Source: Granulicella sp.
GTDB taxonomy: Bacteria; Acidobacteriota; Terriglobia; Terriglobales; Acidobacteriaceae
Assembly (NCBI GenBank): GCA_025357875.1
Contig: JANYLK010000180.1
Span: 23,985-87,984 of the forward strand
Length of the DNA stretch: 64,000 nt
Direction of reading: 5' to 3'
The position numbers and the translations under genes were made by a program. Shown piece after piece: positions 10,051-52,422 of the stretch. Position 1 is the first letter of the stretch. Each line of letters begins with the position of its first letter. Below the pieces are notes generated by a model. It saw only the letters and a program-made list of their open reading frames with translations, had not been told where the DNA came from and did no database searches.

Positions 10051-11220
10051 TTAGGGGTTGACCACGCCAGGCGAGCCCTGAGCCGATGCAGCAGTTCCAA
10101 CCCGCGGATAGTACCCGCTGCGCGTGCGGACCGAAAGCTTCGAGAATCCCTTCTGCTTGGCGTCGACATGCACCACACGGTATCCGCCCAGCGTCGGCGA
10201 CCTGGACGAATGGTAGGCGATTGTGTACTGGGTTCGGATATCGTTCGCCACTTCTTTGGTAATGGCGTCGACCTCCTTCACAGATTTGGGGAAGTAGGCC
10301 TGGCCGCCCGTCTCTTCGGAGAGCGTCTCCAGCACGCGTCGAGCGTGGCGTGCCTCCCCCTTGTTGGTGTCGTCGCCGAACAGCAGACCGATGCAATAGA
10401 TCACCGGCCCGTCAAAATCCTGAATGCGGCGAATGGCCTGATCGAGCGTCGCGCTGGAGGCATTATCCTCGCCGTCGGTAATCACCAGCAGCACTTGCTT
10501 GGGGTGCTTGGCGTTCTTCGAAAGATAATCTGCCGAAGCTACCAGCGCATCGTAGATCGCGGTGCCGCCGCTTGATTTGATGTACGAAAGACCCTGCTGA
10601 AGCTTGTTGATATCGCTTGTAAAGTCCTGATCGATGAACGCCTCCCACGAGAAATCGACCACGAAGGCCTCATCCTCCCGATTGGAAAGCTTGACCAGGT
10701 CAAGCGATGCTTCGTCCACCGCGACGCGCTTGTCGTACATGGACCCGGAACTGTCGATCAGGATTCCCAGCGAGACCGGAAGATCCTCATGGCGAAATCC
10801 GGCGATATTCTGCGGAACGCCGTCTTCATAGACGTGAAACGCGTCCTTGTCCAACGTCTGCACGCTGTGGCCGGACGCATCGAAGACCGAGGCGTTCAGG
10901 CGGACTTCATAGGCGTCTTCGTGCAGGGTATATAGGCCGCCCGTGCCGCGCGCAATTGTCCCCACGGGCCCGGCGGGCTGTTGATTGCCGACAGACTGCG
11001 GAGGCGGATCGGGGTCGGGCGATGGAACAGGATCGCGATCAACCTCCAGCGAAGGTTGCGGGTGTCCCGACGTTTGCGGAAGCGTGCTCCGTTGCGGGGC
11101 TGCCTGCGTACCCGAGGGTTGCTGCGAGAGTGCCCCCAGGCTCACGAACCCAAAGAGCGCGGCAGAGGCGAAAAATCCGCCTACACCTCGAAGCCTGTTT
11201 TCTCTACTCCGACGGTGCAT
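10051..11220 (-). CDS. Secreted VWA-domain protein (VWFA-related, acidobacterial type)
   Basis: A 389-residue protein with an N-terminal hydrophobic segment (GFFASAALFGFVSLGALSQQ), a Pro/Gln/Ser-rich linker (residues 35-90), then a beta-rich module typical of acidobacterial VWFA-related proteins (VRLNASVFDASGHSVQTLDKDAFHVYEDG). A von Willebrand A domain follows with a complete MIDAS sequence, ILIDSSGSM, and LLVITDGEDN. Such domains bind a divalent metal and mediate protein-protein contacts outside the cytoplasm. Its start overlaps the 3' end of the related VWA gene at 11204 by 17 nt, so the two are almost certainly co-translated. Ligand unknown. Confidence 0.85.
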   Translation of the reverse strand: MHRRSRENRLRGVGGFFASAALFGFVSLGALSQQPSGTQAAPQRSTLPQTSGHPQPSLEVDRDPVPSPDPDPPPQSVGNQQPAGPVGTIARGTGGLYTLHEDAYEVRLNASVFDASGHSVQTLDKDAFHVYEDGVPQNIAGFRHEDLPVSLGILIDSSGSMYDKRVAVDEASLDLVKLSNREDEAFVVDFSWEAFIDQDFTSDINKLQQGLSYIKSSGGTAIYDALVASADYLSKNAKHPKQVLLVITDGEDNASSATLDQAIRRIQDFDGPVIYCIGLLFGDDTNKGEARHARRVLETLSEETGGQAYFPKSVKEVDAITKEVANDIRTQYTIAYHSSRSPTLGGYRVVHVDAKQKGFSKLSVRTRSGYYPRVGTAASAQGSPGVVNP

Positions 11221-12325
11221 AATACCCCTGGCGAAAATGTACGGTCAGATTTGGAAGACCGGGCGGAGGCAAAAGTCTCACCTTCAATTTACGCCAGTTC
11301 CCGTCGTGCTTCACCTGCGACGGCGAATATCCGATCACATATTCGTTGCGCAATTCCGATGAGATGCGGGTTGCTACGTCCTGCAAATCGCTCACGTCAC
11401 CGCCGACGTTGAACATGCGGCCTCCCGTCATCTCACAGATGTCCTTCAGCAGGTCGGGACCAAGCTGCTCCTCGGTTGTCGGAGCGTAGCTATCAAAGAT
11501 GCCGATGGCATAAATCTGCACGTCACTCTCGCGGACAACGCGGCGCAACTCGCCCTCTGTATACCGGCTGCGATTGTCACCTCCATCGGAGATAATCAGC
11601 AGCGCCTTGCGTTCGTACCTCGCCTTGCGTAGATGATCGATGCCAAGATACACCGCATCAATCAGCGCAGTCCTGTTCTCCGGCTTCAACATCACCATGC
11701 GAGCCTCGACATCGTCCGGGTCGGACGTATAGTCGACGATCACTGACGGACGGTCATTGAATCCCACCACAAAGAACTCGTCCTGAGGGTTCGAGGTTCG
11801 AAGGAACTCGGTGAGCGCCTTGCGTGCGCGCACAAATTTGGTGGACATGCTTCCGCTCAGGTCAAAAACTACGCCGATTGTCAGCGGTGCGTCCTGGCTT
11901 GAAAAGTACTTGATCGACTGACCGACATTGTTGTCGAACAAATTGAAATTTTCTTTCTCAAGGCCAGTCACCAGGCGGTTCATTGGGTCGGTGACGGTCA
12001 GGGGGACCTGCACCAAATTAACCTCCACGCGTATGCGAGCGTCGTGGCGAGAAGTTGCCTCGGCGGCAACGTTGGCGGCACCCTCTATGACCGGCTTCAA
12101 CTCATCCGGCGTCTTGGGCTTCGGCGGAGCGGTTGGCGTCTGCACATTATCGAGCGGATTTTCCTGCGCGAAGCTCGAAATCGTCAGCGACGAGAATCCA
12201 AGAGCCGCGAGACACACGAGCAGCAAGAGCCGGAAGCAAGTCGCCAGACCTCTTCGCGCCATCTCACCCGTCTGATCCCGCGTTTCAAATCGCATACCGT
12301 TCACAAGACCTATATCATCTCTCAT
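11204..12325 (-). CDS. Secreted VWA-domain protein (VWFA-related, acidobacterial type)
   Basis: A paralogue of the downstream gene: signal-like segment (CFRLLLLVCLAALGFSSLTISSFAQ), Pro/Lys linker, the module VNLVQVPLTVTDPMNRLVTGLEKENFNLFDN, then a VWA domain with MIDAS sequence VVFDLSGSM and LLIISDGGDN, ending in LTVHFRQGYYAP. The ORF begins with about 20 residues that do not look like a signal peptide. In-frame ATGs at 12292 and 12262 (MARRGLATCFRLL) are plausible true starts, the latter placing the hydrophobic stretch correctly. It is the first gene of a two-gene unit. A surface or periplasmic adhesive role is inference. Confidence 0.85.
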   Translation of the reverse strand: MRDDIGLVNGMRFETRDQTGEMARRGLATCFRLLLLVCLAALGFSSLTISSFAQENPLDNVQTPTAPPKPKTPDELKPVIEGAANVAAEATSRHDARIRVEVNLVQVPLTVTDPMNRLVTGLEKENFNLFDNNVGQSIKYFSSQDAPLTIGVVFDLSGSMSTKFVRARKALTEFLRTSNPQDEFFVVGFNDRPSVIVDYTSDPDDVEARMVMLKPENRTALIDAVYLGIDHLRKARYERKALLIISDGGDNRSRYTEGELRRVVRESDVQIYAIGIFDSYAPTTEEQLGPDLLKDICEMTGGRMFNVGGDVSDLQDVATRISSELRNEYVIGYSPSQVKHDGNWRKLKVRLLPPPGLPNLTVHFRQGYYAPSE

Positions 12326-26424: not shown

Positions 26425-27774
26425 ATGCCTGAGACGATAATCCGTGCCGAACGTGTCGAGAAATATTACGCCCAGCCCAGCGCCAACCGCATCCAGGTCA
26501 TCGCCCCAACCGACCTATCTGTGTGCTCAGGCGAGATCCTTGCCCTCCTCGGCCCCTCAGGTTCCGGAAAATCGACCCTGCTGCGTATGCTGACAGGTCT
26601 TTCCGCGCCCTCGGCCGGTCAGGTTTACTGGCACGACAAGCCCATTGCCCTGGCGGACCCCAATGTTTCCATCGTCTTTCAAAGCTTTGCACTCTTCCCC
26701 TGGCTGACCGTCCTTGAAAATATCGAGGCGCCGCTACAGGCGCGGGGTATGAACGCAGCCGAGCAGCGCAAACGCGGCTTGAGCATCCTCGACACGGTCG
26801 GCCTCGACGGTTTCCAGACGGCCTACCCTAAGGAGCTCTCCGGCGGAATGCGCCAGCGCGTCGGATTCGCGCGCGCTCTGGTAGTCGAGCCTGAAGTCCT
26901 CTTCATGGACGAGCCCTTCTCAGCGCTCGATGTGCTAACGGCCGAGAACCTGCGCAGCGAACTGCTCGAGTTGTGGCAGAAGAAGACCATCCCTACCAAG
27001 GCAATCTTCCTCGTGACCCACAACATCGAGGAGGCGGTACTCCTCGCCGACCGAATCATCGTGTTGGGCCGTAATCCCGGAGTGATCCGCACCGACTTCA
27101 AAGTAACTCTGCCGCATCCTCGCGACCGCAAGAGCGAAGAGTTCACCCAACTCGTCGACTACATCTACAAGGTATTAACGCAGCCCGGCGAGCGCCCTCC
27201 CGCGCTGCCCGGAGTCTCCGTGAAGACGGCACCCGACGCCCGCATCGCCCACTACCAGGAGCTTCCACACGCCCGTCCCGGAGGTATCGCAGGATTGCTT
27301 GAATTGCTGATTGACCGGCACGGCAAAGATGACATCTACCGCTTGGCAAGTGACCTCGGATTTGAGATCGACGACCTCTTGCCCATCGTCGACGCGGCCC
27401 AGATCCTCGGCTTCCTCACTGTTACTGAGGGCGACGCCGAAGTAACGACCGCCGGCGCCGAATACGCAAACTCCGAGATTCTGCGCCAGAAGGAACTCTT
27501 CCGCAAGGCCGCCGTCGACAACGTCCTCTTACTCCGCCAGATCGTCCGCGCCATTGAGACAAAGACCGACCACACCGTCCCCGAGGAGTTCTTCCACGAC
27601 CTGCTCGACGAACAATTCACCGAAGAAGTGACCCTGCGCCAACTTGAGACCGCGATCAGTTGGGGCCGATATGCAGAACTCTTCGACTTCGACGCCGCAC
27701 GCCGCCGGTTCATCCAGCCGGAAAAGACCTCGCCCGACTCAGTCGACGATCCTGACGCGGAGATCGAAGAGTGA
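26425..27774 (+). CDS. ABC transporter ATP-binding protein with C-terminal AAA-associated domain (nitrate/sulfonate/taurine type)
   Basis: The ATPase of a nitrate/sulfonate/bicarbonate-type importer. Walker A GPSGSGKST, signature LSGGMRQRVGFARAL, Walker B VLFMDEPFSALD and LVTHNIEEAV lie in residues 1-260. A second region (about 285-430) reads GGIAGLLELLIDRHGKDDIYRLASDLGFEIDDLLPIVDAAQILGFL and matches the helical domain often fused to such ATPases (AAA_assoc_C type), thought to sense or regulate. The stop overlaps the permease start (GTGA), so the two are translationally coupled. No periplasmic binding protein is nearby; the substrate is unknown. Confidence 0.9.
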   Translation: MPETIIRAERVEKYYAQPSANRIQVIAPTDLSVCSGEILALLGPSGSGKSTLLRMLTGLSAPSAGQVYWHDKPIALADPNVSIVFQSFALFPWLTVLENIEAPLQARGMNAAEQRKRGLSILDTVGLDGFQTAYPKELSGGMRQRVGFARALVVEPEVLFMDEPFSALDVLTAENLRSELLELWQKKTIPTKAIFLVTHNIEEAVLLADRIIVLGRNPGVIRTDFKVTLPHPRDRKSEEFTQLVDYIYKVLTQPGERPPALPGVSVKTAPDARIAHYQELPHARPGGIAGLLELLIDRHGKDDIYRLASDLGFEIDDLLPIVDAAQILGFLTVTEGDAEVTTAGAEYANSEILRQKELFRKAAVDNVLLLRQIVRAIETKTDHTVPEEFFHDLLDEQFTEEVTLRQLETAISWGRYAELFDFDAARRRFIQPEKTSPDSVDDPDAEIEE

Positions 27775-29552
27775 ATCCGCTTCACACCAATTTCAGCTAC
27801 ACCCGCGGGCGAGAGACCTTAGCGCGCGCCCTGGTGCTGCGTCGTACCTGGCCGGTGGTGCTGGATCTCTGCGTCGCCGCGATCGGGCTCGCGATCTTCT
27901 ATGCAATTGTGCGCATCGCCATGCTGTGGGCCGGTCCGCCATCGGAGCAGATGGTTGTATCGCTCAGCCCGAGCGCTCTGCCCATGTATGCGTTCTATTC
28001 GCTGGTTCGCATCTTTCTGGCGTACGTACTCAGCATCGTCTTCGCCGTGAGCTATGGATATCTCGCGGCCTACAACACACGCGTAGAAGCGATCATGATC
28101 GCCGTGCTCGACATCCTGCAGTCGATTCCTGTTCTCAGCTTTCTGCCGCCAGTAATGCTCGCGATGATTGCGCTCTTCCCTACTCGCCACTTAGGTGTCG
28201 AACTGGGCGCGATCATCCTGCTCTTCACCGGCGCCGTATGGAACATGGCCTTCAGCTTTTACTCCTCCATCAAGAGCATCCCGCGCGAACTGTGTGAGGC
28301 AGCCGACGTCAACCGCTTCTCATGGCTCCAGCGCCTGGTCCAATTAGAGCTCCCTTACGCCGCCATCGGCCTGGTTTGGAATTCCATCATGTCGGTAGCC
28401 GGCGCCTGGTTCACCCTGATGGCGTGCGAGATGTTTCACTTCGGATCGAAAGACTTTCGCCTTCCCGGACTCGGCTCCTACCTGCAGACCGCAGCCGATG
28501 TGAAGGACGGTAAGGCAATCGCGTGCGGCCTGATCACGATGATTGCGATTATCGTCGCCATCGACCAGTTCATCTGGCGGCCTCTGATCGCGTGGAGCGA
28601 CAAGTTCAAGTTCGAGCAGGTAGAAAGCTCGCAGCACGTAACCTCTCCGCTGCTGCACCTCTTCACCCACTCCAATGTTCTTGCATCGATTGCGCGACAC
28701 ACCACCGAGCCGCTCAACGAAGCAATCTACATCAACCTCGCCAACCGCCGCCGCAAACAGGTCGCACAATTAGCCGCGCATCCCCCGACATCCCCCGGCA
28801 CCGGCTCCAGGGTGACCATGTGGATAGTGGCTGCCCTATTGGGCGCCGCCGTCCTCATCGCCGCGCAGCACGCGCTTGAGTTAGTCCGGCCAGTCACCGG
28901 CGCCCAGTATGTCGAGCTGCTCAAGGGTGCGGGCGCAACATTCCTCCGCGTCAATTTCTCGCTCCTCCTCGCAGCAGCGTGGACAATCCCTGTAGGCGTC
29001 GCAATTGGCTCACACCCGCCTCTCGCAAGACTTGCTCAACCCCTCGCGCAAATCGCAGCCTCCGTACCCGCGACCGCGCTCTTCCCCGTCGTCCTCCTCG
29101 TGCTGATCCGGCTCGGCGGCGGAATCGGCATCGGATCCATTGCCCTGATGCTCCTCGGCACCCAGTGGTACATCTTGTTCAACGTCATCGCCGGCGCGAT
29201 GGCAATTCCCACCGACCTCAAAGAAGTCGCAACTCTCTTCCGCTTCTCGAACGTAGAACGCTGGAGAAAATTGATCCTGCCCGGAATCTTTCCTTTTCTT
29301 GTAACCGGAATGGTTACAGCCTCCGGCGGCGCCTGGAATGCCAGCATCTTCGCCGAGTACTTCACCCTGAACGGCAAGACCCTCACGACCCTCGGCCTCG
29401 GCGAGCAGATCAACGCAGCCACCGCTGAAGGCCAATTTCCAATCATCCTGCTGGGCACGATCCTTATCTCGCTCATGGTGGTCACCACCAACCGCCTGCT
29501 GTGGCGCCGTCTCTACAGACTCGCCGAATCCCGCTACCGCCTCGAAGGCTGA
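27771..29552 (+). CDS. ABC transporter permease, two fused BPD-type domains
   Basis: A 593-residue inner-membrane permease made of two tandem binding-protein-dependent permease domains (about residues 80-290 and 365-585). Each has a coupling EAA-like loop: ELCEAADVNRFSWLQRLVQLELPYAAIGL in the first, DLKEVATLFRFSNVERWRKLILPGIFPFLVTG in the second. Fusion of both halves in one chain removes the need for a dimer. The start is a GTG overlapping the ATPase stop by 4 nt. With the upstream ATPase it forms a complete membrane core lacking only a substrate-binding protein. Confidence 0.9.
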   Translation: MNPLHTNFSYTRGRETLARALVLRRTWPVVLDLCVAAIGLAIFYAIVRIAMLWAGPPSEQMVVSLSPSALPMYAFYSLVRIFLAYVLSIVFAVSYGYLAAYNTRVEAIMIAVLDILQSIPVLSFLPPVMLAMIALFPTRHLGVELGAIILLFTGAVWNMAFSFYSSIKSIPRELCEAADVNRFSWLQRLVQLELPYAAIGLVWNSIMSVAGAWFTLMACEMFHFGSKDFRLPGLGSYLQTAADVKDGKAIACGLITMIAIIVAIDQFIWRPLIAWSDKFKFEQVESSQHVTSPLLHLFTHSNVLASIARHTTEPLNEAIYINLANRRRKQVAQLAAHPPTSPGTGSRVTMWIVAALLGAAVLIAAQHALELVRPVTGAQYVELLKGAGATFLRVNFSLLLAAAWTIPVGVAIGSHPPLARLAQPLAQIAASVPATALFPVVLLVLIRLGGGIGIGSIALMLLGTQWYILFNVIAGAMAIPTDLKEVATLFRFSNVERWRKLILPGIFPFLVTGMVTASGGAWNASIFAEYFTLNGKTLTTLGLGEQINAATAEGQFPIILLGTILISLMVVTTNRLLWRRLYRLAESRYRLEG

Positions 29553-37477: not shown

Positions 37478-38434
37478 CTATTCCTGGTTACCCGGACGCA
37501 CTTCTTCCGGTGCATGAAGCTTGGTCTTCGCGGCAGAAAACTTCACGCGCACCATATCCCGCTGCGGATTATTGCCCATGGGGGCATTAAATGTTGCGAT
37601 GTAGGTCTCTGCGACCGCATGTTGAAACTGAGCTAGAAACGGGGCCATCGAAACTGGATTACCACTACCTTGCCAATAGTTAATGCCGCCAGTTCCCTGC
37701 GTCAGTTGCGCGAGATAACTCTGACCGCTGTTGTTCGCCGAATCGCCGCGCATGCCGGCGCCGCCGTAGTAGATCGTATACACGGCAACCCCAGCTCGCT
37801 GCGCGTCCGTCACTGCAGCGGCAACGTAAGGGCTGTCCTGATTCATAATGCTGGTACTTCCGTTGTATGGATCAACTCCATCGGAAAGCATCAGCACAAA
37901 TCGTGCTTTGTGCCGCGATGCAGTTCCAATCTCGTTTCCATCTGACGATGAACCAGCGACGGGCCAATGCTTCACAAAGTCCGACAGGCACAGGTATGGG
38001 CTCGCGCTCATGCCGGGCAAACCATCGGGCAAATGAAGTGTTGAAGCTGCCAACTCGTGATCCGTGCTAAAGGGCTGCTGCGATACGACGCGACCAAACT
38101 GCATGAAGCCGACCAGTACCTCAACGCCAGGCGGCAAGGTACGAACAAATTTTCGCAGATTGTCGAGCTCACGCCCAACGCTCTCGCGCAAGCCATCGTC
38201 GATTAGTAAAGCCACCTGGGCATTGCCAGGAACCACAGACTCCCACGCCGTCAGTGGCCCTTTGTGGTCATTGACGGAGACGATCACCGCGGATGCATTT
38301 TCCGGCGGCGTTGACTTGGCATCAACGGTAACCAGTACCTGCGTCGGCACCGGACCTTCCCGCTGGGCTGGTGCAGCATTGCTTGACACTAGGGCGGCTG
38401 TAACGAGTAATCCGAATTGCAAAATGATTTTCAT
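37478..38434 (-). CDS. Secreted VWA-like protein with degenerate MIDAS
   Basis: A 318-residue exported protein (signal peptide MKIILQFGLLVTAALVSSNAAPAQ) with an acidobacterial VWFA-related layout: VLVTVDAKSTPPENASAVIVSVNDHKGPLTAWESV, then ALLIDDGLRESVGRELDNLRKFV where a VWA domain would carry D-x-S-x-S. The serines are absent there, so metal-ion coordination of the usual type is doubtful. LMLSDGVDPYNGSTS supplies the later D-G motif. The C-terminal part (ETYIATFNAPMGNNPQRDMVRVKFSAAKTKLHAPEEVRPG) fits the same family. It differs clearly from the pair at 10051-12325. Confidence 0.75.
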   Translation of the reverse strand: MKIILQFGLLVTAALVSSNAAPAQREGPVPTQVLVTVDAKSTPPENASAVIVSVNDHKGPLTAWESVVPGNAQVALLIDDGLRESVGRELDNLRKFVRTLPPGVEVLVGFMQFGRVVSQQPFSTDHELAASTLHLPDGLPGMSASPYLCLSDFVKHWPVAGSSSDGNEIGTASRHKARFVLMLSDGVDPYNGSTSIMNQDSPYVAAAVTDAQRAGVAVYTIYYGGAGMRGDSANNSGQSYLAQLTQGTGGINYWQGSGNPVSMAPFLAQFQHAVAETYIATFNAPMGNNPQRDMVRVKFSAAKTKLHAPEEVRPGNQE

Positions 38435-38509: not shown

Positions 38510-41023
38510 TCACTCGCCGCCAATCCTTACCTTCAGTCCCGCACGCACCGTGAATGGCAGTCCCGGATACCCAATAGGCCCAATGTGCTGTTGGCTCAGC
38601 AAATTATCAAGTTCGCTGAACATGGTTACATGCCTCTTCACCGCATAGGTAAAGTTAGCGTCCAGTTTTGCGTAACCAAAATCAAGATTGCGATTCGGCA
38701 GAATCAGAGAGTTGCCAAAGTCCGGATCGAAGCCATCCAAAAATGTGGAATCGTCCGAGCGGCTGGCTAGTGCGCCTTTGAATGCCGCACCAAACTTTGT
38801 GCCGGTGTATTGCACCGCGAAGAATCCCGTATGCGGGGGGCGTCGAAACGGTCGCGCCCCAATCAACGGACCTTCTGCCCCAATCCGGACCCCCGGCAAG
38901 TTAGGGTTATTGCTCGCGGTGCCATTGCTATACGCATCGCTCGAGAAGGACTGAGTCACAACCGCATTCAGGTAGGTATAGCCGCCGCGCACAATGAATC
39001 GCGAGAGCGGTTGCCAACGCAGCTCCGTCTCAAATCCCTGCGCACGAAAAGCCAAAGAGTTGAGATATGGAGTGAATACCATCTGCGCCGTACTCGGCGA
39101 AAAATGGAAGATTTGCTGTAGCGCGCCCGAGTCAACGCCCTCAAGCTGGTGGTTAAACGAATTATGAAAGTAGTCGACCTTCAGCATCAACTTCTCGCCT
39201 CGGATGTTTTGGTCGACACCTCCATCGTAAGAACGCGATCGCTCCGGCCCCGCTGGCATCACGTGATACTTGGCAATGTCAGCCGTGTCGCCTGCTTGTT
39301 GGAGCTGGGTATAGAGGCTGGCGAACTGGATACCCAGCGTGGGCTCCTGCACTCCAGTAGCCGCATTCACACGCAGCAAAGTACCGTGGAACCACTTTGT
39401 CCCTGGGCGCACCGGCGCGTATGACAAACCAAGTCGCGGAGTTCCCGTGATGCCGTAGAGATGATTCTTTTCGAGTCCGCCACCAGCGGAATAAAAGAGG
39501 CGGTTCTTGATCGCACCCTGAAGCTGCAAAGTGTATTCGTAGTTCGTCCGCTGCAACTTTTCATCGGAAAACGAAGTTACAAAGCTGCCGCGCTCGTTCT
39601 CATATCGGAAGCCGAACAGCGCAGTCACATAATGGCTAAAGCTATAGTCGGACTGATAATACAGCTCGTCGCGATTTGAAACCTGTTTCTCCGTAGGGAG
39701 GAAGAACGAAGCCCGTCCGGTTGCGCTGTATCCATTCGCCCCGCGAATTGTGACCACGTTGCCGAAGTATTCCGTGAAGCAGTTAGCCGTTGGAGCGCTG
39801 CAGGGTACGGTTCCGAAATTGAATGTGATCGGCGTTCCTACATCCTCGAACTGCTTCGCCTGCTCGCGCTTACGGGCGATGCCGTAACGCACCAAATTGT
39901 GCCAGTTCCCCGCCACGCGGTTCTGCAAGGTCAGTCCCGAGTACAGATCCTGGTCACTCTGCTTGCCACTGGCGGAAATGCCGTAGAAATCATGCGCGCC
40001 AGGAAGCCCCGCAGCCGAAACAGCATTCCGAATGGTGAAACGAGCCTGCGTATTCGCCAGCAGATCGTATCCAAGGTTGGCCGCCGACGTAGCCGAATGG
40101 TACTCGTCCCTCGCCAGCGCGTTCGACGTATCGAAGCGCGAGAATGCCGTGTAGTAATCAAGCTTTTGGTGCGCCCCGCTCACCGCCAACTCGTCGCGGT
40201 ACGTATGAAAGTTGCCGGCGTCACCAGAGTAGATAGCAACCGGCTTCGCAGTACTGCCACGCGGGGTCTCCAGATTCAGCACCGACGCTCCAGCATCGGT
40301 CCCGTACAGCGCAGAGTTGGGCCCACGATAGAGTTCGAGACTGGCCAACCCAGTCGAGGACACAGTCCCGAAGTCGAACGTACCACCAACATCCCCGACG
40401 GGAATGCCGTCAATCAGCACCTGATTCGCAGTGGAATTTCCACCCCGCACAAACAGCGAAGTCACGCCGCCAGTTTGCCCGCTCTGCACCACATCAACAC
40501 CAGGAGATTGCCGCAGCGCATCTACCACTCCGACTGCCGTTGCCAGATAAGAAACCGGAATCAGTGTCACCGCCGAGCTCGACTGCTCGATCGGTGTCGG
40601 CATGCCCGTAGCTGTCACCGTGATCGCCTCGTGTACCGAGGATGTTTCGAGTACAACGTTCTGCACCACCACGTCGGTCGAGCCACCGTAAAAATCCAGC
40701 CCGATGCCGGGATAGAACGTCGCCGACGACGTCAGCAGGATAAAACGGCCGGCCTCAGTAGATCGAATTTCGTATGCGCCGTCCAAGCCGGCCATACCAA
40801 TCGCAATTGGTTTCGACCCCTGAATAAGTTGAAGTCGCGCCCCGGGAAGTGGCTTGCCCAGCGGGTCTGTCACCACGCCGCGAACCACCACGGCATGCGC
40901 GGCGGTCGAGAACAGCAGCAAAAGTTGTAAGAGAATCGCGAAGGCGGCAAGCGTCGAAAATCTGCGCATGGCAGACGCACGCAAACTAGATGCGGCCATC
41001 GAACGGCCGTGGACGATAAACAT
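38510..41023 (-). CDS. btuB: TonB-dependent outer-membrane receptor, probable vitamin B12 (cobalamin) transporter
   Basis: About 837 residues. Signal peptide FAILLQLLLLFSTAAHA is followed by a carboxypeptidase-regulatory domain (VVVRGVVTDPLGKPLPGARLQLIQGS...GAYEIRS). A plug domain follows (DALRQSPGVDVVQSGQTGGVTSLFVRGGNSTANQVLIDGIPVGDVGG) and then a large barrel ending LPFTVRAGLKVRIGGE. BtuB of E. coli is near 600 residues; the extra N-terminal domain is typical of acidobacterial receptors. The cobalamin riboswitch directly upstream is the strongest reason to assign B12 or a related corrinoid as substrate. The ATG at 41023 has AGGAG about 9 nt upstream; the ORF track's longer start runs through the riboswitch and is rejected. 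tonB, btuF, btuC and btuD are not in view. Confidence 0.85.
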   Translation of the reverse strand: MFIVHGRSMAASSLRASAMRRFSTLAAFAILLQLLLLFSTAAHAVVVRGVVTDPLGKPLPGARLQLIQGSKPIAIGMAGLDGAYEIRSTEAGRFILLTSSATFYPGIGLDFYGGSTDVVVQNVVLETSSVHEAITVTATGMPTPIEQSSSAVTLIPVSYLATAVGVVDALRQSPGVDVVQSGQTGGVTSLFVRGGNSTANQVLIDGIPVGDVGGTFDFGTVSSTGLASLELYRGPNSALYGTDAGASVLNLETPRGSTAKPVAIYSGDAGNFHTYRDELAVSGAHQKLDYYTAFSRFDTSNALARDEYHSATSAANLGYDLLANTQARFTIRNAVSAAGLPGAHDFYGISASGKQSDQDLYSGLTLQNRVAGNWHNLVRYGIARKREQAKQFEDVGTPITFNFGTVPCSAPTANCFTEYFGNVVTIRGANGYSATGRASFFLPTEKQVSNRDELYYQSDYSFSHYVTALFGFRYENERGSFVTSFSDEKLQRTNYEYTLQLQGAIKNRLFYSAGGGLEKNHLYGITGTPRLGLSYAPVRPGTKWFHGTLLRVNAATGVQEPTLGIQFASLYTQLQQAGDTADIAKYHVMPAGPERSRSYDGGVDQNIRGEKLMLKVDYFHNSFNHQLEGVDSGALQQIFHFSPSTAQMVFTPYLNSLAFRAQGFETELRWQPLSRFIVRGGYTYLNAVVTQSFSSDAYSNGTASNNPNLPGVRIGAEGPLIGARPFRRPPHTGFFAVQYTGTKFGAAFKGALASRSDDSTFLDGFDPDFGNSLILPNRNLDFGYAKLDANFTYAVKRHVTMFSELDNLLSQQHIGPIGYPGLPFTVRAGLKVRIGGE

Positions 41024-41067
41024 GTCGGAACTCCTACGCTCCCCCCCGGGAACGTGGTTACTGTACG

Positions 41068-41275
41068 TCGCAGAACCGGTCTCCTGACTCACGCGGGCAC
41101 ATGCAGCCGATAAAACTCGACCTCCCTTCCCGTCGCCTGGCGGCTTCAGTGGGAAAATCCTGGCTGGCATTCACGCTCTCCAGTGTCTTGGAACAGCGTG
41201 CGCGTTCACAGTTGCGGGGCAGTGGCGGATTTTCACCGCGCTTCCCGAACATTCCGTTACGGGCAAAAGTTGTGG
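41068..41275 (-). promoter_or_regulatory. Cobalamin (B12) riboswitch upstream of the btuB-like gene
   Basis: On the minus strand the leader contains the B12 box AATCCGCCACTGCCCCGCAA continuing CTGTGA (about 41205-41232), preceded by GGGAAgcgcGGTG. After variable stems comes AGTCAGGAGACCGGTTCTGC (about 41071-41090), the conserved 3' core element. Order and spacing match the adenosylcobalamin riboswitch class. It ends about 45 nt before the btuB start codon, suggesting control of translation or early termination by corrinoid binding. Confidence 0.93.
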
Positions 41276-41420
41276 GTGACGCGACCGCCAGACGAAGGCC
41301 AGACGCAAAAGGGCGAGATCCAATTAGTAAGCGATCTTGTTCGCGAAGTCAAAACTCTGCAGACTTGTCGGACTGCACACAACCAGCTAATCTCACGATC
41401 TCTGATCAACGGGTCGCTGC

Positions 41421-42633
41421 TTAGGTCTGGTCGGTGGACTTGGAGTTGGAGCCACGATCCAGGACTACCAGGAGCTGGCCAAAGCGCACGACCAGTTGGT
41501 CCGCATCCAAATCACCGTCGTCAGGCGGCTCGAGGAACGCATTGAACAGCTTTGAGCACAAGCCTTCGCGGCTCGCCAACCTCGTGCGTCGAGCCCGCAG
41601 AAACCCAAAACGAAAGGGAGAATTATTCTCAATCTCCTGCAAAAATTCTGCCAAGAAGAATTGTTGCGAGTCTGCCACCGCTCCGACAATCAGCGATCGC
41701 CAACTCATCCTCAACAAATCTTTGAGCATCGCCGAACCGTGCGGCAGCCGATCCATTCTGGCTCCAACCTGCTCGCTGAAGCTGAGCAGTTGAGTCGCGA
41801 GGCCGCCCATTGCTGTCGCTCTCCAAAATTGTGCGATCGAACCACGCTGCAAATCCTCACGTACATCCTGCAGGCCGTCCCCCAATTGCAGCAGCACGCC
41901 CCACTTAAGCGAGAAATCGGCGCTCTGTCGCATTCAGGCAGCCGCGCGCGAGACACGCATCTGCCAGCACCGAGCTTCCACCCTTCGCGCAGCTCATCCG
42001 CAATACTTCCGTATCGCTGAAATTTGCGGTGCTCTTCACTTGTGCAATGCTCTCCTGCTGCGCCCGATGGATCGCCAATAAGCACTGGTAAACCTATGGA
42101 TAATGCTCTCGACTGAATTGCCCTTCGATCAACTCGACCAGGGCCCACAGCGAAGCTTCCCGTCCGTCCCCAGCGGAAATTCTCTCTCCGCGCAAGCGCT
42201 CTCGAAAGCGCTCGCCGAATCTTTGCTTGCCCTCATCGAAAATATCAATGCGATCCAGAAAGTTATCGGTGTAGCGGTAGAGCAGGCTGTACCCCAGGAT
42301 GGATGCAGTCAATTCGACAGTCTTCCCTGAAACCGGTTGAAGCCCGCACGCGGTCCAGGCATTCCTGTTCGCCTGGATGATATCTGCCATGCTCAGGCTG
42401 TCGTCGAATCGCCTGGCCCAACGCGCCAGCTTCGTACCCACGGGCAGAAAGTCATCCGTAAGCAGCTGAACCGCATGCCGTTCCAGATTTAGCCCAGCGC
42501 CGGAAAATCGTGCGAAGCCGGTAATTCGTTGCTGCGCTGCAAGCCGATCTGAATGTGTAATGCGCGCCGCCCTGAGCGGACTACGCACAGCAAGCGTTCC
42601 AGACTTCAATCGTCTGCGTACTCTATGCCTCAA
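41421..42633 (-). pseudogene. Class I isoprenoid synthase-like gene with nonsense and frameshift lesions
   Basis: The minus strand encodes, in pieces, a protein of the all-helical isoprenoid/squalene-phytoene synthase-like superfamily. The first piece (to 42094) reads ANRNAWTACGLQPVSG, LLYRYTDNFLDRIDIFDEGKQRFGERF and ALVELIEGQFSREHYP, then TAG. The same frame continues without its usual Gln: VYQCLLAIHRAQQESI...MSCAKGGSSVLADACLARGCLNATERRF. One extra base then shifts the frame to SLKWGVLLQLGDGLQDVREDLQRG and FRFGFLRARRTRLAS. Acid-rich TDNFLD and LGDGLQDVRED sit where substrate-Mg motifs occur. One nonsense and one frameshift in otherwise well-preserved sequence indicate recent inactivation. 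Confidence 0.8.
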
Positions 42634-42732
42634 CCCACGCCCAATCGAAAGTCTCCCTCATTCTCTCCTGAGTTATGCAGTCCCGACATCGCCGGTTCCA
42701 TCGTCCACGCAGGTCCGCGCTTTCATTCGCCG

Positions 42733-50940: not shown

Positions 50941-52422
50941 CTAAGCGCCCTGCCCGACCGACTCCTGCGCCTTCAATGCCGACGCCGCGCGACTCGCCTT
51001 GTTTCGCTGGCTACGCAGCTTCATGAACGAGCGTGCCTCGGTATACAAACGCGGAAGATCGCGGTGCAACACTGCCTGCCAGATCACGCGGAATGCCGCC
51101 TTCGGCCGGAAGAAGTACTCGTCGTAGAATTTGTGCACCATCTCCATAACGTACTCGACCGGCAGACCGGGGTACTCGATGTGCGCCATCTGGTGGCCGC
51201 CCTCGTCCGACATCGCCTCGTTGGTGATGAACCCATTTTCCTTCGCGTAATCGAAGAATTCGGTGCCTGGAAACGCATGCGCAATCGACACCTGAATCGT
51301 CTCGCAGTCAAGCTGCTTGGCGAACTCAATCGTGTTGCGAATCGACTCCCGAGTCTCGCCTGGCAGGCCGAGAATGAAGTCGCCATGCACAACCAATCCA
51401 AGCTTGTGACAGTCGCGCTGGAAGTCAAGCGCCCGCTGAACCGTTGCGCCCTTTTTGATGTTCTTCAAAATCTGCGGATCGCCCGATTCAAAACCAACGA
51501 TCAGCAACCGGCAACCGGCCTCCTTCATCGCCTTCAGCGTGTCGAAATCCGTGGTCACGCGCGACGTGCACGACCATGTCAGACCCAGCGGCTTCAACTT
51601 CTCGCAAAGCTCAACCGTGCGCGCTTTCTGAATGTTGAAGGTGTCGTCGTCGAAGAAAAATTCCTTCACATTCGGGAACAGTTTCTTTGCATTCGCCATC
51701 TCCGCGGCAACATCGTCGGTAGAGCGCTTACGCCACGCATGTCCGCTCAGAGTTTGCGGCCACAGGCAGAACGTGCATTGCGCCGGGCATCCACGCGTTG
51801 AATACAGCGACACAAAAGGATGCAGCAGAAATGGCACGCTGTACTTCGTCACGTCGAGGTCACGCGCGTAAATCTCAGTCGCCCAGGGCATCTCATCAAG
51901 CTGCTCCGGAGTTACCTGCGCCCGGTCCGGATTGTGCTGGATCACGCCGTTCGCGTCCCTATAACTGACCCCGAGAATCTCGTTCAGCGGCTTGCCATTG
52001 GCAAACTCCACCACCGAAAAATCAAACTCGCGCCGACAGATAAAGTCGATCGCAGGGCACTCGTTCAAAGCCTTATCCGGCGATGTCGTCACCGGCGGTC
52101 CGACGAACGAAATCTTGATCGAGGGATACGTCTGCTTGATCACTTCGGCCATCTTCTGGTCGCCGTCCCAGCCCATGGTGCTGGTAAACAGGACCAGGAA
52201 CTCATAGTCCTTCAGAATCGTCACCACTTCCGCCCACTTAATGTGGTGCGGCGGAGCGTCCAGCAGGCGCGAGCCTTCCAGCATTCCGGCGGGGTACGTC
52301 AACCAGACCGGGTACCAATACGACTCGATCTCGCGGGTTGCGGGCCAGCGACTGCTGGCGCCACCATCAAACTTTTCAAAGGAGGGCGGGTTCAGGAACA
52401 GCGTCTTCAGGGGCGTTGTCAT
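50941..52422 (-). CDS. hpnJ: Hopanoid-associated radical SAM protein HpnJ
   Basis: A 493-residue B12-binding-type radical SAM enzyme. The N-terminus reads LFLNPPSFEKFDGGASSRWPATREIESYWYPVWLTYPAGML, diagnostic for HpnJ. The radical SAM cluster is RGCPAQCTFCLWPQT (C-x3-C-x2-C, about residues 208-222), then KEFFFDDDTFNI and LIVGFESGDPQILKNIKKG. HpnJ acts late in hopanoid side-chain modification (cyclitol ether formation). It is separated by 5-6 kb from the hpnCDE operon. An unusual feature is that it stands alone here, without hpnH, hpnG, hpnI or shc adjacent. Confidence 0.9.
   Translation of the reverse strand: MTTPLKTLFLNPPSFEKFDGGASSRWPATREIESYWYPVWLTYPAGMLEGSRLLDAPPHHIKWAEVVTILKDYEFLVLFTSTMGWDGDQKMAEVIKQTYPSIKISFVGPPVTTSPDKALNECPAIDFICRREFDFSVVEFANGKPLNEILGVSYRDANGVIQHNPDRAQVTPEQLDEMPWATEIYARDLDVTKYSVPFLLHPFVSLYSTRGCPAQCTFCLWPQTLSGHAWRKRSTDDVAAEMANAKKLFPNVKEFFFDDDTFNIQKARTVELCEKLKPLGLTWSCTSRVTTDFDTLKAMKEAGCRLLIVGFESGDPQILKNIKKGATVQRALDFQRDCHKLGLVVHGDFILGLPGETRESIRNTIEFAKQLDCETIQVSIAHAFPGTEFFDYAKENGFITNEAMSDEGGHQMAHIEYPGLPVEYVMEMVHKFYDEYFFRPKAAFRVIWQAVLHRDLPRLYTEARSFMKLRSQRNKASRAASALKAQESVGQGA

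Follow-up and report, generated by a model that had tools for sequence, protein, structure and literature searches.

A conserved cobalamin riboswitch predicted ahead of a BtuB-like TonB-dependent receptor in Granulicella and related Acidobacteriaceae

The 64,000-nucleotide stretch analyzed here (the window) belongs to an assembly of 4.56 Mb in 229 contigs, judged 97.5% complete; among named organisms, its closest relatives belong to Granulicella and Edaphobacter (Acidobacteriaceae). On the reverse strand, an open reading frame running from an ATG at 41023 to 38510 encodes a TonB-dependent receptor (Table 1). A cmscan of the window placed a match to the Cobalamin family (RF00174) ahead of this gene, at 41271-41057 (-), with a score of 59.8 bits (E 2.6e-12) against a gathering score of 31.5 bits. 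The match spanned the full model (positions 1-189). No second RF00174 match was found anywhere in the assembly, and there was no other Rfam match in the window.

An earlier note had proposed that a cobalamin riboswitch controls an 837-residue receptor. The covariance-model score above the gathering score, the position of the aptamer upstream of the ATG, and the length of the reading frame with its ribosome-binding site all agree with that proposal. Three details needed correction. The distance from the B12 box (AGTCAGGAGACC) to the receptor ATG is 54 nt rather than about 45 nt; the "B12 box" and the "AGTCAGGAGACC core" are present but are one and the same element; and the interval given, 41068-41275, covers most of the aptamer but ends short of the expression platform at 41057-41031.

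Table 1. Features of the riboswitch and receptor locus, in window coordinates.
Feature	Position	Strand	Evidence
Cobalamin riboswitch aptamer, class I type (predicted)	41057..41271	-	RF00174; presence at 51/80 orthologous loci
Outer aptamer helix, 5' strand CGGAAU	41251..41256	-	Partner 41076-41071; both sides changed in 5/6 pairs; 95% of cells paired
Outer aptamer helix, 3' strand GUUCUG	41071..41076	-	Same covariation count
L5 CCCC, predicted kissing-loop half	41216..41219	-	Invariant; role by analogy (PMC10653944)
Extra accessory helix between P7 and P8 (P7/P8), 5' strand	41195..41200	-	Partner 41177-41172; 6/6 pairs with double changes
Extra accessory helix, 3' strand	41172..41177	-	Same covariation count
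B12 box AGTCAGGAGACC	41078..41089	-	Sequence; invariant across 42 aligned leaders
CC opposite GG (41034-41033) of the Shine-Dalgarno	41056..41057	-	RNAalifold, unprompted; 98.8% of cells paired
P13 hairpin, with L13 G-run GGGG at 41046-41043 (predicted)	41038..41053	-	Both sides changed in 4/5 pairs; 98% of cells paired
Shine-Dalgarno UAGGAG, 7 nt ahead of ATG	41031..41036	-	Sequence
TonB-dependent BtuB-like receptor, 837 aa	38510..41023	-	Open reading frame; family and fold matches
Carboxypeptidase-regulatory-like domain, residues 45-120	40664..40891	-	PF13620 sub-threshold here, 16/16 orthologues; beta-domain in model
Putative TonB box EAITVTATG, residues 132-140	40604..40630	-	Sequence; all 16 orthologues share V136, T137 and G140
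Plug domain, residues 163-246	40286..40537	-	PF07715, 56.3 bits

Orthologous receptor loci were collected from named genomes of related Acidobacteriaceae (80 loci), and 42 leaders were aligned. Across the 43 base pairs counted in the canonical structure, 94.3% of cells were paired, compared with 85.8% in 500 shuffles and 37-47% in slid controls, whose highest value was 46.5%. Both sides had changed in 24 of these pairs, a count that none of the 500 shuffles reached. The conserved core pairing and the B12 box were retained throughout, and aptamer core positions were invariant in all 42 sequences. RNAalifold recovered most aptamer helices, the extra helix between P7 and P8, P13, and the pairing of CC with the Shine-Dalgarno (SD) without prompting. 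It joined the P3 5' strand to L5 rather than to the B12-box side, and that alternative is also invariant. The folding energy of the window leader was no better than that of shuffles (z of 0.02). The aptamer and its covariation are observed features of these leaders, while the P13/SD hairpin is a covarying prediction.

Aptamers with the same core preceded 51 of the 80 orthologous receptors. Among the remaining loci, some contigs end at the receptor; 12 others were scanned with Rfam and gave no cobalamin match. Within the genus, 21 of the 24 other genomes compared had receptor orthologues with 56-74% identity; two (G006 and G019) had only relatives with 42-45% identity, and one (G004) had only a C-terminal fragment (68%). 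The element before these receptors scored 49-66 bits, while other cobalamin riboswitches in the genus mostly scored 80-130 bits. In a phylogeny of 75 receptors, 13 gains or losses are required to account for the element's distribution, at least 11 of them on well-supported branches.

The low scores and the repeated absences would both fit an aptamer decaying into a relic, which is nevertheless extremely improbable: the low score is common to all 12 genus orthologues that have the element, the core does not vary, and compensatory changes occur across the helices, including paired replacement of GGG/CCC by GAA/UUC in the outer helix. Since family-wide conservation is accompanied by compensatory base changes, chance is likewise unlikely. 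The re-sequenced outer helix and the extra helix plausibly account for the low covariance-model scores, and they explain them well enough that a deeper structural anomaly was rejected. The extra helix appears to lie in the P6 accessory region, which differs widely among cobalamin riboswitches (PMC9600662), and for that reason is not new in kind. Taken together, the leader in the window reads as a genuine and well-conserved cobalamin riboswitch, with a corrinoid as its probable ligand.

The distribution of the element is most simply accounted for by an old riboswitch that was lost repeatedly. Orthologues without it occur in several lineages, and hence not every such receptor requires control by B12. 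CbiC was found in eight of the 24 genus genomes compared, and seven of those eight lack the element on this receptor. A link between riboswitch loss and B12 production was considered and set aside, because independent changes on the tree are too scarce to back such a link. Separately, a relative within the genus retains a P13-like hairpin together with an SD before the receptor at one locus (L059, about 2425-2470), where no aptamer is detectable; this arrangement is possibly a step in riboswitch loss.

The receptor itself resembles BtuB by several measures. TIGR01779 (TonB-B12) was its best NCBIfam family at 79.6 bits, a score that falls outside the family given its cut-off of 599.7. BtuB was the best PDB match by phmmer and also by profile (98.8 bits), with Cir next at 94.0 bits; the sequence similarity to BtuB is mostly confined to the plug. 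An AlphaFold model built from a 56-sequence alignment had a mean pLDDT of 84.6, and each of the ten top-ranked PDB fold matches was BtuB, covering plug and barrel with target TM-scores of 0.83-0.90. The score for SusC/RagA (TIGR04056) was 48.2 bits, below the 368.25 bits that define that family. The remark that sequence alone would leave this receptor generic was therefore overstated, since BtuB tops the NCBIfam, PDB sequence and PDB fold searches, even if the sequence margin is not decisive. The BtuB-like fold is a confident model prediction.

Ahead of the plug, the extra N-terminal domain described in the earlier note was recovered as a PF13620-like region. PF13620 aligned to receptor residues 47-107 with a sub-threshold score of 22.2 bits (cut-off 32.3) and matched in all 16 orthologues scanned (best E 2e-10), and the AlphaFold model places a beta-domain at this region. 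As a distinguishing mark of the receptor the domain carries less weight: many genus open reading frames of 900-1200 residues match the receptor over roughly residues 20-155 only, and the module is common among receptors of the genus.

Corrinoid physiology was assessed from gene content. MetH is represented in the genome by a fragment lying at the edge of a contig, and methylmalonyl-CoA mutase, accompanied by MeaB, is present, as is BtuR. CbiC, CobS, MetE (PF01717) and a PduO-type adenosyltransferase were not found in the genome by searches that were positive in control genomes. Because MetH, methylmalonyl-CoA mutase and BtuR are present and CbiC, CobS and MetE were not found, the genome appears to be corrinoid-dependent and apparently unable to make vitamin B12. 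Other genomes of the genus have cobalamin riboswitches ahead of nrdA, metE, cobU, and cobG-type genes, the usual B12 regulon.

These data also bear on what the receptor carries. A functional riboswitch could use B12 as a signal while the receptor transports something other than a corrinoid, such as a cobalt or nickel chelate or a tetrapyrrole. The largely plug-limited similarity, the TIGR01779 score far below the equivalog cut-off, and the closeness of Cir to BtuB in the profile search are compatible with such cargo, but the uniform BtuB fold matches, the apparent corrinoid need of the genome, and the finding that no other gene there lies under a detected cobalamin riboswitch make it very unlikely. 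On present evidence the receptor would work like BtuB, although outside TIGR01779, with a corrinoid as the probable substrate.

A FecCD/BtuC-type permease was also not found in this genome by a search positive in control genomes, and FecCD was present in only three of the 19 genus genomes searched. The inner-membrane step of corrinoid import consequently lacks an explanation, which counts against the corrinoid-uptake reading. It is conceivable, though rather doubtful, that most genus members, this corrinoid-dependent species among them, take up corrinoid via this receptor and then by an inner-membrane transporter that is neither BtuCDF nor of any described type. Auxotrophs that keep BtuB but miss BtuCDF are already known in general (PMC6072759), so the present genome is an example of that gap and not its discovery.

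Between the aptamer and the start codon, the leader has the arrangement of a btuB-type translational platform: a P13 loop complementary to L5 (the kissing itself is predicted) and an SD predicted to be sequestered. The CC opposite the SD was invariant among the 42 leaders, and P13 together with the SD, joined through the CC:GG extension, had a folding energy of -16.2 kcal/mol when folded alone. In E. coli btuB and env8HyCbl, L5-L13 kissing makes P13 more stable and favors a hairpin in which the ribosome site is hidden (PMC10653944). Because the layout matches the kissing loop and ribosome-site hairpin of E. coli btuB, the best-fitting interpretation is that corrinoid would repress translation.

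Under the proposed mechanism, binding of adenosyl-corrinoid when corrinoid is plentiful would allow L5 (CCCC) to kiss L13 (GGGG). The kiss would hold P13 and its extension in place, CC would pair with the GG of the SD, and ribosomes could not start. When corrinoid is scarce, the ribosome site would be freed and the receptor made, and the predicted corrinoid auxotroph could then scavenge from its surroundings. With no variation in the L5 and L13 runs, the kissing interaction draws no covariation support from these leaders, and the stability of the P13/SD hairpin alone means that release of the SD without ligand is unexplained by this mechanism. In some related receptors of about 41% identity (e.g., G017_L073), a G-run lies close ahead of the start codon and may be the SD itself.

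Control acting mainly on transcription, through termination or mRNA decay, rather than on ribosome access was weighed against this layout. Some cobalamin riboswitches do use terminators (PMC10653944), and a terminator-like pattern occurs at 41009-40993 (-), just within the coding region; such patterns are at chance level, however (one found, 1.1 expected from shuffles), and the covarying P13 hairpin links the invariant CC to the SD in a translational layout, so that this alternative is highly improbable. Repression of translation is thus retained: very probably, a class-I-type riboswitch lowers translation of a BtuB-like corrinoid receptor at high adenosyl-corrinoid, where ligand, kissing, direction and substrate are predicted. 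The earlier interpretation of a receptor under a cobalamin riboswitch is supported overall.

Several neighboring genes were also considered. HpnJ, at 50941-52422 (-), was confirmed by TIGR03471 (732 bits, cut-off 578). Its presence in the window had been offered in connection with B12, to which it adds little because some 10 kb separates it from the receptor and the Rfam scan of the window found no riboswitch ahead of it. A VWA-type protein gene at 37478-38434 (-) has a weak TIGR03436 match and a first motif of IDDGLR, not the DxSxS pattern. At 43 of 75 related loci, such a gene follows the receptor in the same orientation. An operon of receptor and VWA gene as one system was rejected, as the VWA gene shows no tie to the riboswitch: both are present at 27 loci, the VWA gene alone at 16 and the riboswitch alone at 24. 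Between a quinone reductase gene and the riboswitch, the stretch 41300-42700 (-) contains several overlapping short open reading frames that match nothing in Pfam and have no DNA counterpart at related loci; it is possibly a decayed gene. Elsewhere in the window, a pair of neighboring genes at 10051-12325 (-) each score over the cut-off for the acidobacterial VWA family TIGR03436, and an ABC ATPase with a C-terminal AAA-associated domain is followed by a BPD_transp_1 permease at 26425-29552 (+), with no link to the riboswitch.

No description of this receptor or its riboswitch in Acidobacteria was found among open-licence papers. The analysis would give a confident corrinoid-uptake label, based on sequence and modeled fold, to a receptor family spread over the Acidobacteriaceae. 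This family scores far under the curated BtuB cut-off, and surveys that rely on the cut-off could miss such receptors. The arrangement is notable mainly because no gene for the usual inner-membrane B12 importer was found in this genome, leaving a concrete gap in which a corrinoid-dependent genome has the receptor, MetH, methylmalonyl-CoA mutase and BtuR with the FecCD permease undetected.

Compared with known systems, the locus is like E. coli btuB in having an aptamer before a TonB-dependent corrinoid receptor and, by prediction here, L5-L13 kissing coupled to a hairpin that sequesters the ribosome-binding site. It differs in having a G-run as L13, opposite CCCC, and in the lack of a detected FecCD permease in the genome; moreover, the receptor, with its N-terminal domain, is about 220 residues longer than BtuB (more than 200 had been claimed) and only about 14% identical to it over the fold alignment, though BtuB is the best fold match. 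The leader resembles RF00174 in its full-length match, B12 box, L5 and P3-P7 core, but its outer helix is GAA/UUC where the model has GG/CC, a short loop replaces a longer insertion of the model, and there is an extra covarying accessory helix. Bacteroides BtuB/BtuG loci likewise place TonB receptors for B12 under cobalamin riboswitches, but with genes for surface lipoproteins and an ABC transporter (PMC10404256), whereas here no such partner was seen to be conserved beside the receptor, only the VWA-type gene. SusC-type TonB receptors share a carboxypeptidase-regulatory-like domain ahead of the TonB box, an N-terminal extension whose function in SusC proteins is unknown (PMC7782687); the barrel here fits BtuB best and the TIGR04056 cut-off is not reached. 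Overall, a riboswitch with a BtuB-like receptor is a sound but expected arrangement that is known in kind.
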